Source: Candidatus Lucifugimonas marina (GTDB taxonomy: Bacteria > Chloroflexota > Dehalococcoidia > Lucifugimonadales > Lucifugimonadaceae). Taken from it: a DNA stretch of 64,000 nt. Positions 29,145 through 43,817 of this stretch are shown here, piece by piece; position 1 is the first letter of the stretch; each line of letters opens with the position of its first letter. A program made the position numbers and the translations under genes. The notes beneath the pieces are model-generated. The model saw only the letters and a list, made by a program, of their open reading frames with translations, ran no database searches and was not told the origin of the DNA. The stretch lies in the NCBI GenBank assembly GCA_029593915.1, contig CP046147.1, positions 186,001-250,000 of the forward strand. The letters run 5' to 3'.

Positions 29145-30185
29145 ATGTACGTTGGAACTCAGGTAGCAGCACGGAACGACGCAGATTTTGAGCAGTGGGC
29201 ACAGTTGGGTGTCGTAAACATCTGTTCAGATCCACCTGGTAATCCACATGATTGGACCGTCGAGGATCTGAGACGTCATAAAGAAAAGGTCAATTCGTAC
29301 GGAATTGAACTGGATATGGTACAGATTCCACTATCGTCCACCGTGCTCAACAATTCGCAGTCTCCACACGTAATGCAGGGAATCAGTCCGGAACGTGACC
29401 GCGAGATCGAATCGATTCAGAACATAATCCGCATGTGTGGTGAAGTTGGTATTCCTGCGGTCAAGTACAACATGAACATCATCGGCATCCCTCGCTCAGA
29501 GCGTGAGGAAGGTCGAGGTGGATCTTCAAACTCGACATTCCGATGGGCAAAAATGGATCAGGATGCTCCGCCAACCATTGCCGGTGAAGTCAGCGTCGAC
29601 GAATTCTGGGAGCGAATCGACTACTTCCTGGAGCGAGTAGTTCCAGTTGCGGAAGAGGCCAAAGTTCGTTTGGCTTGCCACCCTCACGACCCATACACGC
29701 CAGACGGATACATGGGTGTGACTCGAGTGCTAGGAACCGTCGAGGGAATGAAGAAGTTCGTGATGATGCACGAGAGTGACTATCACGGTTTGAACTTCTG
29801 TCAGGGGACAGTGACGGAAATGCTTGATGATCCTGGCGCTGAAATTGCCGACGTTATTCGATGGTTCGGTTCACGGAACAAGATTTTCAACGTTCACTTC
29901 CGAAACATTCGCGGTCACAAGCTCGACTTCATGGAAACATTCCCAGATGAGGGCTCGATAGATTTCTCTGAAATCATCAAGGTCTACCAAGAGGTTGGTT
30001 ACAAGTACATGATGATGCCGGATCACGTTCCATGGATCAGCGGAGACGATCCTCAGGGAACAGCGTTTGCTTACTGCTACGGCTACATCACTGCCCTGCT
30101 TCAGGGTATCGGCGAGCCACGCAAGCAGCCTTACGTGATCAAAGAACCCGGAACTCACAAAACCTCACCGATTCAGGGACGCTAG
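29145..30185 (+). CDS. Mannonate dehydratase (UxuA)-like TIM-barrel protein, copy 1
   Basis: 346 residues. The C-terminal half carries UxuA-type metal and substrate motifs: ACHPHDPYTP, GLNFCQGTVTEML, IFNVHFRNIRGHK and MMPDHVPWISGDDPQG, where His, Cys, His and Asp are expected metal ligands. In UxuA the last motif reads RPDHG; here the Arg is Met, so the substrate may differ from D-mannonate. Start at 29145 with GGAGG 9 bases upstream. The neighbour 74 bases downstream is a close copy. Probable cytoplasmic dehydratase of a sugar acid. Confidence 0.88.
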   Translation: MYVGTQVAARNDADFEQWAQLGVVNICSDPPGNPHDWTVEDLRRHKEKVNSYGIELDMVQIPLSSTVLNNSQSPHVMQGISPERDREIESIQNIIRMCGEVGIPAVKYNMNIIGIPRSEREEGRGGSSNSTFRWAKMDQDAPPTIAGEVSVDEFWERIDYFLERVVPVAEEAKVRLACHPHDPYTPDGYMGVTRVLGTVEGMKKFVMMHESDYHGLNFCQGTVTEMLDDPGAEIADVIRWFGSRNKIFNVHFRNIRGHKLDFMETFPDEGSIDFSEIIKVYQEVGYKYMMMPDHVPWISGDDPQGTAFAYCYGYITALLQGIGEPRKQPYVIKEPGTHKTSPIQGR

Positions 30186-30258: not shown

Positions 30259-31299
30259 ATGCATGTTGGAACGCAAGTAGGCGCACGCAGCGACACCGAC
30301 TTTGAGCAGTGGGCTCAGCTTGGTGTGGTCAACATATGTGCCGATCTTCCCGGCGATCCCCACGATTGGACGAAGGACGCTCTTTCTCGGCACCGAGACA
30401 AAATCAATTCGTATGGCATAGAGCTCGATATGGTGCAGCTCCCGCTAGCTTCATCGATTCTTGAGAAATCAAAATCGCCAAATATCATGCTTGGTAAGAG
30501 TCCCGAGCGTGATCGAGAAATCGAATCGATTCAAAATCTCATTCGAATGTGTTCCGAGGTTGGGATTCCGTCGGTTAAGTACAACATCTGCATCGTTGGA
30601 GATGTACGAACCGAGCGAGAGGTCGGTCGAGGCGGATCTTCGGTTTCGGCGTTCCGCTGGTCGAAGCTCGACAAAGATGAAGCGCCGGGAATCGCTGGAG
30701 ATGTACCCGCCGATGCGTTCTGGGAACGTATCGACTACTTTTTAGAACGTGTAATTCCAGTTGCCGAGGAATCGAAAGTTCGAATGGCGCTCCATCCGCA
30801 CGATCCATACATTCCAGATGGATGGCGGGGTGTCGATACCGTGCTGGGAACGGTTGATGGTCTGAAGAAATTCGTTCAGATGCACGAAAACCCGTATCAC
30901 GGTCTTAACTTCTGTCAGGGAAGCGTGACTGAGATGCTCGATGATCCTGGCGCTGAAATCGCCGATGTGATTCGTTGGTTCGGAAGCCGGGACAAAATTT
31001 TCAACGTTCACTTCCGAAATATTCAGGGTCATAAACTCGATTTCAAAGAGACGTTCCCTGACGAGGGCAGCATCGATTTCTCGGAGATCATCAAGGTCTA
31101 CCAAGAGGTTGGATATAAGTACATGCTGATGCCGGACCACGTGCCGTGGATCAGCGGTGACGATCCTCAGGGGACTGCGTTTGCTTACTGCTACGGTTAC
31201 ATCACAGCGCTGCTGCAGAGCATCGGCGAGCCTCGTAAACAGCCGTATGTGATCAAAGAGCCCGGCGATCACAAGACTTCACCGATTCAGAGTCGATAA
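30259..31299 (+). CDS. Mannonate dehydratase (UxuA)-like TIM-barrel protein, copy 2
   Basis: 346 residues, the same length as copy 1 and close to it throughout, almost identical over the last 110 residues. The same motifs appear: ALHPHDPYIP, GLNFCQGSVTEML, IFNVHFRNIQGHK, LMPDHVPWISGDDPQG. Differences concentrate in the N-terminal half (for example ADLPGDPHDWTKDALSRH against the first copy's SDPPGNPHDWTVEDLRRH). The pair is a tandem duplication kept intact, which suggests two related substrates or a dosage effect. ATG at 30259 with GGAG 9-12 bases upstream. Confidence 0.88.
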   Translation: MHVGTQVGARSDTDFEQWAQLGVVNICADLPGDPHDWTKDALSRHRDKINSYGIELDMVQLPLASSILEKSKSPNIMLGKSPERDREIESIQNLIRMCSEVGIPSVKYNICIVGDVRTEREVGRGGSSVSAFRWSKLDKDEAPGIAGDVPADAFWERIDYFLERVIPVAEESKVRMALHPHDPYIPDGWRGVDTVLGTVDGLKKFVQMHENPYHGLNFCQGSVTEMLDDPGAEIADVIRWFGSRDKIFNVHFRNIQGHKLDFKETFPDEGSIDFSEIIKVYQEVGYKYMLMPDHVPWISGDDPQGTAFAYCYGYITALLQSIGEPRKQPYVIKEPGDHKTSPIQSR

Positions 31300-32354: not shown

Positions 32355-33362
32355 ATGTGTTCGGGCTGGATAGGTGTATCGATGACCCTATTGCACGTGA
32401 AATGGTTTCACGAATTCTCATTCTTGGACTCGCCGCTTGGATTCAGCGAAGCATTGACGCCGTTCGTGGCGTGGATGATGCTCGGTGGGGCAATTGGGAT
32501 TGGTCTGCTGGTGTTCGTTGACGGGGCGTTGTCCACGTCGAGAATCTACGGCCAGATAACCAAGTGGCTGGAAGCTCGAAAAGAGCACGGTCCGCTGGTA
32601 CTGAGAGTTGGCGCCGGTATGACGCTGCTCCTGTCATGGCAATCGGACGCCATTCTTGTTCCAGAGTTAACAGATTCTGCTTCGTGGATTGGTTGGCTCC
32701 AGTTCGCACTCACGATAGTTCTGATCTTCCCGAAAATGACTCCAGTCGCAGGAATAGGAATTCTCGGATTGTGGTTGATAGGCGTGATCGACTTCGGACT
32801 TTTCCACATGCTGGATTACGTTCTGTTTATCGGAGTCGGCGTGTACTTGGCTGTATCTATCACCTCTCGACAGTGGCTCAGAGGTTTCGGGATTCCAGCG
32901 TTGTACGTTGGGCTGGGTTTCTCACTCATGTGGGTGGCATTCGAGAAAATCGTCTACCCGGCATGGGGCACCAACATTCTTGAACTCAACGAGAGTCTTG
33001 CGCTTGGCGTTCCGCTCGATCAGTTCTTGATTTTCATAGCCGTTTCAGAGCTAGTCTTGGGCTTCTTGCTGGTGATAGGTCTGCTTGGGCGTCCGCTCGG
33101 GTTAGCCATCACTTTGGTCTTGTTCACCACTGCGCTTACGTTCGGCAAGACTGAAGTAGTTGGGCACACGATAATCCACGCTTCATTGATCGTATTTTTG
33201 TTGGAGGGTGAAGGAAGCTTCTACAAAACACCGATCAATTTACATCGTAAGTTAGGACTGAGATTCGCTTTCGCATCGCTCAACTTCGTGATCGTTTCGT
33301 TCCTGTTGCTTGGCGCGTACGTCACGTGGTCTAAACTTGTTTTCGATAACGCAGTTGGGTGA
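32355..33362 (+). CDS. DoxX-like polytopic membrane protein
   Basis: 335 residues, eight or nine helices. The second half (GFGIPALYVGLGFSLMWVAF, then GFLLVIGLLGRPLGLAITLV) resembles DoxX/DoxD-type subunits, with which quinone- or thiol-linked redox roles are associated. The first half (LTPFVAWMMLGGAIGIGLLV, FALTIVLIFPKM) is also membrane. It may be a duplicated or fused DoxX. ATG at 32355, or the ATG at 32382. Its neighbour on the same strand is the OsmC-type selenoprotein candidate, which fits a redox-defence pair but is only positional evidence. Confidence 0.7.
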   Translation: MCSGWIGVSMTLLHVKWFHEFSFLDSPLGFSEALTPFVAWMMLGGAIGIGLLVFVDGALSTSRIYGQITKWLEARKEHGPLVLRVGAGMTLLLSWQSDAILVPELTDSASWIGWLQFALTIVLIFPKMTPVAGIGILGLWLIGVIDFGLFHMLDYVLFIGVGVYLAVSITSRQWLRGFGIPALYVGLGFSLMWVAFEKIVYPAWGTNILELNESLALGVPLDQFLIFIAVSELVLGFLLVIGLLGRPLGLAITLVLFTTALTFGKTEVVGHTIIHASLIVFLLEGEGSFYKTPINLHRKLGLRFAFASLNFVIVSFLLLGAYVTWSKLVFDNAVG

Positions 33363-33542: not shown

Positions 33543-33577
33543 TTAGGCAGATTCGCCCTCAAATGGGAGAGTAACGA

Positions 33578-34081
33578 TTGGGTAGCAACGAAGAAACCAA
33601 AGATACGGTTGCATACCGGTCACGTGTACGAATCGAGCGGGTGAAGGGGCCGATTCGCCGGGCATACGTGCCTGCTCACGAAGGACCCGTGATGCTCGGG
33701 GTTCACTCGGAAGTCGCTGAGCACTACGGAGTCGATAACGATGTTGTCGACCCATACGCAACCACTCTCGACTATATCGTCACAGCCGCCGCAGGCTGAA
33801 TGACCGGAACATTTGGCGGCGCCCTTGAGGCTCGCGGGATTCCGGCTGGAGATGGTTTTCTTCATTCCGACGCTGTTGGTGAGCTTGAAAAAGAGAACAA
33901 CGTTCTCGTCATCAAGCGAATACACGTTAGCTACAAGCTGAAAGTCGATTCAGCACTGCGTGAAGAGAAAGCCGACGCCATTCAACGTGCGTTCGATCTG
34001 CATGCTGATTCGTGCCCGGTATACCGCAGTATTTACACCAGCATCGACATTACGAAGGATTTTGAGTTCGTCGAGGGGTAA
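33578..34081 (+). CDS. OsmC-family peroxidase-like protein, probable selenoprotein (in-frame TGA)
   Basis: Read through one TGA, the frame gives 167 residues that match the OsmC/Ohr fold across the whole length. The first part has the beta-hairpin RIERVKGPIRRAYVP and HSEVAEHYGV, then the helix ATTLDYIVTAAAG. The TGA (33797-33799, codon 74) follows immediately, then MTGTFGGALEARGIP. In OsmC proteins this helix position carries the peroxidatic Cys (AGCxxGTF-like). The second Cys is kept as Cys146 in DSCPVYRSI. So UGA replaces a catalytic Cys, the classic selenocysteine pattern. A stem (33804-33809 with 33840-33845) plus a small inner stem-loop lies just after UGA. TTG start with GGGAGA 8 bases upstream. 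No selA/B/C/D gene is in the window. The alternative is a pseudogene. Confidence 0.82.
33804..33845 (+). promoter_or_regulatory. Candidate bacterial SECIS stem-loop
   Basis: CCGGAA (33804-33809) can pair with TTCCGG (33840-33845), starting 4 bases after the UGA. Inside, GCC (33821-33823) and GGC (33829-33831) enclose the loop CTTGA, whose distance from the UGA (24 bases) lies in the range known for bacterial SECIS elements. The middle of the stem is poorly paired, and I cannot fold it properly by eye. Confidence 0.5.
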
Positions 34082-34195: not shown

Positions 34196-34690
34196 ATGAC
34201 GCAAGCATCGAGTGGCGGTTTTTACGCGAGCAGTTGGCTGAAAATTCAGTGGCTGCAAGTCGTTGTCCAGATCGTTCACGTGTTTACGGCGATTACGTTG
34301 ATCGGTGTGCCGTTTGTGGTCAGATACGTGGTTATTCCACAGGCTGACGATGCTACAAATGCCGAAATTGTCGAAGGTTTCTACTCTGTTTGGCCGCTGT
34401 TAGTCGCTGTCGTACTGTTTAGTTAGGGATTGTTGAACTTCTTATTTGCCAATGCTGGTTCAGGAAGTTCGATACTGGGTAGCTTCCAAACTCCGTTCGG
34501 CATGACTGTTCTTCTCAAGATGGCACTTCTGCTTGTGATCGATGCGATAAGCATCTTGTTGGGCGTGAACGAAGATTTCCAAGCCGATGCAGAAATGTGG
34601 CTGCTCGTTCTTATGACGATCGGAATAGTCGCTCTGATACTCGGCAGTACGCTGCATCGAGGCGGCATTAGTCTGGAGAAATCTAACTAG
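34196..34690 (+). pseudogene. Membrane protein gene interrupted by an in-frame TAG
   Basis: ATG at 34196 with a GGGGGG ribosome site. The frame encodes helices VVVQIVHVFTAITLIGVPF and VWPLLVAVVLFS, then TAG at 34424-34426 (codon 77), and continues in the same frame with LLNFLFANAGSGSS, MTVLLKMALLLVIDAISIL and MWLLVLMTIGIVALILG to a stop at 34690. Together this is one four-helix protein of about 164 residues, similar in layout to CopD-like or DUF membrane proteins. A single base change explains the stop. TTG at 34430 could restart translation. It could also be two genes or a sequencing error. Confidence 0.6.
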
Positions 34691-43472: not shown

Positions 43473-43551
43473 AGTCGGTCGAGAATTTTTCTTTTAGAGA
43501 AAACTCGTACTGATCAACCCCTGTTTCGCGAGTAGTAGTAGTGCCCAATTG

Positions 43552-43745
43552 TCCCTGGCAGGTCTCCTGGCTTCCGGTTCGACTCATCAAGTCGAAGTTG
43601 CGTTCCTTACCGATTTGATAAATCAGTGGATTCTCACGCAACAAAACCGGTAACAGTGGCGCTACCGCAGCGGATTCACACCGCTTTCCCTTTTCACCCG
43701 ATTCACAACTCTAAAGAGTCATTAGCCGGACACCCGGGACGCTGT
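43552..43745 (-). promoter_or_regulatory. Cobalamin (AdoCbl) riboswitch
   Basis: On the minus strand the window reads GCCACTG (43654-43660) in the core and AGCCAGGAGACCTGCC (43557-43572), the B12 box, in the right order and spacing, with paired arms between. The aptamer spans about 190 bases. It precedes a terminator and the cobO-cobT-cobS-cobC-cobU operon, which it should shut off when adenosylcobalamin is present. Between the VIT gene stop and the aptamer there are 70 bases for the promoter. Confidence 0.93.
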
Positions 43746-43817
43746 ATTCAATTGCATGGAAGGCTATGTTGCGGAGCTGGATTGGTCAACTGTTTCGAAT
43801 GAATCGTTCATGCGAAC

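Follow-up and report, generated by a model that had tools for sequence, protein, structure and literature searches.

A candidate OsmC-like selenoprotein gene with a conserved in-frame UGA codon in Candidatus Lucifugimonas marina and other Chloroflexota

A 64,000-nucleotide stretch (the window, positions 186001–250000) of the 3.09-Mb, one-contig genome of Candidatus Lucifugimonas marina (CP046147.1) encodes an OsmC-like protein whose frame contains a single TGA. The gene, its predicted product and a putative selenocysteine (Sec) insertion sequence (SECIS) are listed in Table 1. Among the sequences compared, conservation extends to the UGA, the frame, the protein sequence on either side and a predicted RNA element just 3′ of the UGA.

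Table 1. Features of the candidate Sec-OsmC-like gene, in window coordinates
Feature	Position	Strand	Remarks
Sec-OsmC-like gene	33578..34081	+	TTG start, TAA stop, 167 residues with U74
Likely ribosome-binding site GGGAGAG	33565..33571	+	6 bases 5′ of the TTG; predicted
In-frame TGA, predicted selenocysteine codon (residue 74)	33797..33799	+	Aligns with the first conserved OsmC-family Cys
Second conserved Cys, C146, motif CPV	34013..34015	+	Proposed resolving partner of Sec74
Predicted bacterial SECIS (bSECIS) stem-loop	33804..33845	+	Minimum free energy (MFE) −20.6 kcal/mol; apical loop CUUGA at 33824–33828, 24 nt after the UGA

The frame at 33578–34081 has one internal stop, the TGA at codon 74, ahead of the TAA at 34079–34081, which confirms the single frame with a lone TGA described in the initial annotation. 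The read-through protein matches Pfam OsmC (PF02566) at 39.8 bits (cut-off 27.5) and at 31.2 bits in a whole-genome search. The part after the TGA scores 26.6 bits alone, and the part before it has no match. NCBIfam gave weak subfamily matches, all below cut-off. An AlphaFold model of the read-through protein (mean predicted local distance difference test score, pLDDT, 93) has the OsmC fold, with Ta0195 (2onf) and Escherichia coli YhfA (1ml8) as closest solved folds. Match and fold bear out an OsmC-family protein continuing across the TGA, as first noted. The TGA had been placed at the end of an AAAG helix, which is nearly right; the model puts residue 74 inside the central helix (residues 63–85). 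The downstream CPV cysteine is retained as C146, and is invariant in the 39 rows of alignment A6 together with T63, D65, residue 74, G77, R86, G101 and R137.

Ratios of nonsynonymous to synonymous substitution (dN/dS) were computable in three of five pairs, the other two being saturated. Values before and after the TGA were 0.063 and 0.056 against L058 (93% identical), 0.040 and 0.080 against L059, and 0.026 and 0.092 against L061. The protein is under purifying selection on both sides of the TGA. The read-through protein had no match in plasmid sequences (tblastn, 1e-5) or in PHROGs, and a single-protein phmmer search of PDB sequences returned just one weak, unrelated match.

Relatives were sought in overlapping class, phylum and family samples. 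Matches occur in 29 of 294 class genomes, and 29 of the 30 listed contain exactly one TGA; the match without TGA (L056, 22 bits) was set aside as spurious. The phylum sample has matches in 43 of 400 genomes (among the 49 listed, 37 with one TGA, one with two and 11 with none), and 36 of the 37 are nearly full-length. The family sample has matches in 33 of 76 genomes, with one TGA in 31 of the 34 listed. The TGA falls in the identical column in 29/29 class, 31/31 family and 32/37 phylum one-TGA matches, and in all 12 named relatives. Five one-TGA phylum matches were left out of this column reading (second copies in G538 and G571, and those of G621, G380 and G422), as were pieces in G399, G514 contig C793 (one with two TGA), G308 and G335. 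Two one-TGA matches are present in each of G538 (C1:7645731 and 7666401) and G571 (C134 and C149).

The Sec form is the rule in the sampled relatives and the Cys form the exception. The initial annotation proposed looking for homologues with Cys or UGA at this column, and UGA was found in nearly all close Chloroflexota relatives, Cys rarely. G623 encodes a nearly full-length orthologue with Cys, and two other OsmC proteins (paralogues) of the same genome as the window also have Cys there. Weak matches without a stop in G633, G310 and G298 resemble ordinary distant Cys-type OsmC proteins. One relative, G559 (L130, G559:C49:15840-16217, minus strand), has TGG (Trp) at the UGA codon, a broken hairpin stem and a profile match that begins at position 28; these traits seem to mark a copy that decayed once the Sec codon had been lost. 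The G559 genome retains selA. Decayed copies also occur in the genus of the window, one with two in-frame TAA codons in the matched part (G690, L136) and one without the Sec region (G684, L135); both genomes retain selA. A quick-method tree of 86 rows, with very long outgroup branches, gives support of 98 for the Trp form and 87 for the Cys form, the latter on a long branch. Because both are nested among Sec forms, the tree favours, without proving, Sec as the ancestral state.

The RNA 3′ of the UGA was examined for a SECIS element. Across 15 near relatives, identity of codons for the same residue is 0.80 at codons +1 to +15, versus 0.41 at −50 to −1 and 0.45 at +16 to +45. In five further sets, drawn with different limits and sharing some members, the top 12-codon window lies at +2 or +6 (in f29, a tie with +10). 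Broad sets are less sharp, with 0.58 in 32 g1-like rows and 0.68 in f102, where the window at −34 gives 0.64. The fold of the RNA in the window has a z-score of −1.93 against dinucleotide shuffles. One hairpin common to all lineages was rejected; the best stems lie at differing registers (loop start at UGA position 27, 28 or 30), so clades were counted apart. The 74 distinct 48-nt stretches comprise 22 from the window clade (A3), 34 from other lineages (A4) and 16 in A5, which was aligned and left out of pair counts; L127 and L128 are in none. In the A4 sequences, a 7-bp hairpin has its pairs formed in 99.6% of cells, and two of the pairs show compensatory changes. For the A3 stem the paired share of cells is 87%.

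According to the sections of PMC13188914 that set it out, the bSECIS model has an apical loop of 3–9 nt, an upper stem of 4–16 bp, a spacing of 16–37 nt and an MFE of −7.5 or lower. The predicted element agrees with the features so described in loop size (5 nt), spacing, stem (7 bp around one bulge) and energy. The bSECIS check proposed at the outset returned a synonymously constrained stem-loop. A SECIS element after the UGA is well supported by these comparisons, because synonymous identity doubles only in the 15 post-TGA codons and sister lineages carry compensatory changes.

The genome encodes SelA (513.6 bits), SelB (343.9 bits, above cut-off), SelD (365.5 bits, with one in-frame TGA) and a tRNA-Sec (66.4 bits; SeC with anticodon tca (UCA) by ARAGORN), so that the search for selA, selB, selC and selD suggested at first found all four. 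The selD gene (L023, G000:C1:287363-288292, minus strand) has its TGA in a CAGU motif, and the hairpin behind it, with loop GGUCU, looks like a canonical SECIS; at least one further selenoprotein gene is therefore likely in the genome. Within the family, selA exceeds its cut-off in 28 of the 33 genomes that have the OsmC-like gene, a number that includes the decayed copies of G684 and G690, against 25 of the 43 that lack it (Fisher p 0.013, uncorrected for relatedness). In a chosen set of 48 class and phylum genomes, some with a Sec form and some lacking one, 44 have selA above cut-off.

The UGA/Cys column in homologues, the Sec machinery and the constrained stem-loop support the proposal of the initial annotation that this UGA specifies Sec, and its refuting conditions on Sec machinery and on homologues were not borne out. 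A selenoprotein gene is the best overall explanation and very probably the correct one; insertion of Sec at the UGA is, as judged from these comparisons, close to certain. Several results pull the other way. Codon-preserving shuffles of 23 sequences gave a mean z-score of only −0.92, with −0.86 for an unrelated stretch at +99. The A3 stem has no covariation, and 371 of 500 shuffles match its both-sided changes. The bSECIS model as described in PMC13188914 also asks for a G among the first two loop nucleotides, and the best-fold loop CUUGA has none there. Family genomes with the gene include five of 33 with selA below cut-off (part-length in G641 and G703, no match in G643, G659 and G660), and elsewhere selA is below cut-off in G023, G031 and G378; the genomes with selA below cut-off are multi-contig assemblies. 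Finally, a YhfA-like active site weighs against a plain Ohr-type peroxidase. Folding energy alone was rejected as proof of a SECIS, its signal being weak, so what supports the element is the synonymous constraint together with the covariation seen in sister lineages. In the window, only a suboptimal fold (loop GCCCUUGAG, −17.7 versus −20.6) has the G that the model asks for; the sister-lineage loops, U-GGA-A or U-GUC-A, fit the rule.

By established biology, SelB and Sec-tRNA(UCA) would bind the stem-loop and insert Sec at residue 74. The product would have the OsmC fold, with Sec74 carried by the central helix and Cys146 pairing with this residue; by analogy with Ohr/OsmC proteins, such a redox pair is likely. 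The oxidant attacked by the Sec74 selenolate would probably be an organic hydroperoxide, or else some other electrophile based on sulfur or oxygen. Cys146 would then close the selenenic acid to a selenenylsulfide, which a dithiol reductant would reset, both steps again by analogy with Ohr/OsmC. Whether a hydroperoxide is the real substrate is, on this analogy, an even call. In the part of PMC5962072 that treats XfOhr, a catalytic Glu lies 10 residues ahead of the reactive Cys (Glu51–Cys61). The Glu at −10 of Ohr/OsmC thiol peroxidases is absent here, where Leu64 is at −10 and Asp65 at −9. These surroundings resemble the YhfA branch rather than the Ohr/OsmC peroxidases, so residue 74, which the initial annotation placed correctly in the conserved Cys column, is peroxidatic by analogy only.

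The protein could be a selenoprotein that is no peroxidase: a sensor, a dithiol exchanger, or a redox protein of YhfA type whose target is another electrophile or a persulfide. This has somewhat less than an even chance; against it, the protein keeps the two redox residues just as peroxidases do, and Asp65, invariant in the 39 rows, could replace the Glu.

Readings in which the UGA is not Sec fare far worse. Translation might truly end at the TGA and start again at the adjoining ATG (TGAATG), giving a two-piece OsmC; an ATG at 33800 does abut the TGA and opens a 93-aa open reading frame (ORF). Re-initiation is highly unlikely because 11 of the 34 A4 sister sequences have CTC, which is no start codon, right behind the TGA; moreover, the break would lie within the central helix of the model, and the constrained RNA element would be left unexplained. 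A pseudogene or sequencing error, with the TGA a plain nonsense mutation, is still less probable. The genus does contain the decayed copies described above, and a TAG also interrupts the next downstream gene of the window. Against this, the same TGA recurs across genomes of many families, the frame has no other stop, and dN/dS of 0.03–0.09 on both sides in three of five pairs speaks for a maintained protein. Decoding of the UGA as Trp or some other standard residue, through a changed code or suppression, scarcely deserves credit despite the TGG of G559, since TGA is used as a stop elsewhere in the window (six of 33 mechanical ORFs of at least 250 aa end in it, including the neighbour at 32355–33362), the decayed-looking G559 copy is nested among UGA forms, the family residue is Cys rather than Trp, and Sec machinery is present.

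A UxuA-type gene lies upstream of the gene in 10 of 12 named relatives, and an enolase-superfamily gene lies downstream on the opposite strand in nine; some of these loci end at a contig edge. The DoxX-like gene that lies just upstream in the window is also present in L058 and, in part, in L062. These neighbouring genes point to sugar-acid metabolism and say nothing about what the protein acts on. The window encodes tandem similar 346-aa ORFs at 29145–30185 and 30259–31299 (plus strand), the first of which matches Pfam UxuA; related copies are upstream of the gene in 10 of 12 named relatives. Directly downstream, at 34196–34690 (plus strand), is a small membrane-protein-like gene split by an in-frame TAG at 34424–34426. 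Its counterpart in the closest relative (L058:5609-6103) is unbroken and encodes 164 aa; neither piece nor the intact L058 copy has a Pfam match. A cobalamin riboswitch (93.3 bits) lies at 43540–43752 on the minus strand.

The gene may represent a distinct OsmC subfamily, spread through Chloroflexota, in which Sec is ancestral and nearly obligatory, the SECIS has shifted register without loss and the rare Cys and Trp forms are secondary; the chances that this holds or fails are about equal. If true, it would invert the rule, stated in the passages of PMC1088965 that bear on it, by which Sec proteins are rare in comparison with their Cys counterparts, and would hint at a substrate that Cys does not serve well enough. 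Gene callers that take UGA as a stop would truncate the protein to a piece, so this conserved redox protein is probably mis-annotated in many genomes of the phylum. In the sampled genomes of this one phylum the redox family almost always carries Sec; with the rare Cys orthologue and two same-genome Cys paralogues serving as natural controls, it makes the question of why some enzymes require selenium directly testable.

OsmC-like selenoproteins are already a known, rare kind. The passages concerned report three sequences with motif UxxT from the Sargasso Sea metagenome in 2005 (PMC1088965) and five Sec sequences from the Global Ocean Sampling (GOS) metagenomes (PMC2398784), so that the initial annotation was right in pointing to OsmC-like selenoproteins in marine surveys. 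Reviews of 2022 (PMC9312934) and 2026 (PMC13188914) list the family in the portions that cover it. No report of one in Chloroflexota was found in the literature searched, which was largely without subscription journals, figures and supplements, and the main text of the deep-Sep paper (PMC12013277) has no mention of OsmC, Ohr or Chloroflex.

Compared with known systems, the protein shares its fold and two redox columns with the OsmC/Ohr peroxidases, which have Cys where it has Sec and Glu where it has Leu, at −10. The YhfA branch, described in the relevant parts of PMC5962072 and PMC4069020 as a subfamily without known activity, has Cys at this column; E. coli YhfA (1ml8) is 23% identical in an eight-row alignment. 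Ta0195 of Thermoplasma acidophilum (2onf) is an archaeal Cys form listed as putative or hypothetical. The Sargasso Sea and GOS proteins are likewise of the OsmC/COG1765 type, with UGA at the Cys column and a bacterial SECIS element, as far as the passages describing them go. Their printed motif is UxxT, whereas here it is U-x-x-G-T (Gly at +3, Thr at +4), the Gly being invariant in 39 rows. One motif search itself demanded Gly at U+3, so UxxG rests on alignments A1 and A6, whose rows come from BLAST or hidden Markov model matches, with the 39 rows of A6 chosen from available loci. The marine surveys report three and five Sec sequences beside more Cys forms, whereas here Sec is the usual form in dozens of genomes of one phylum.
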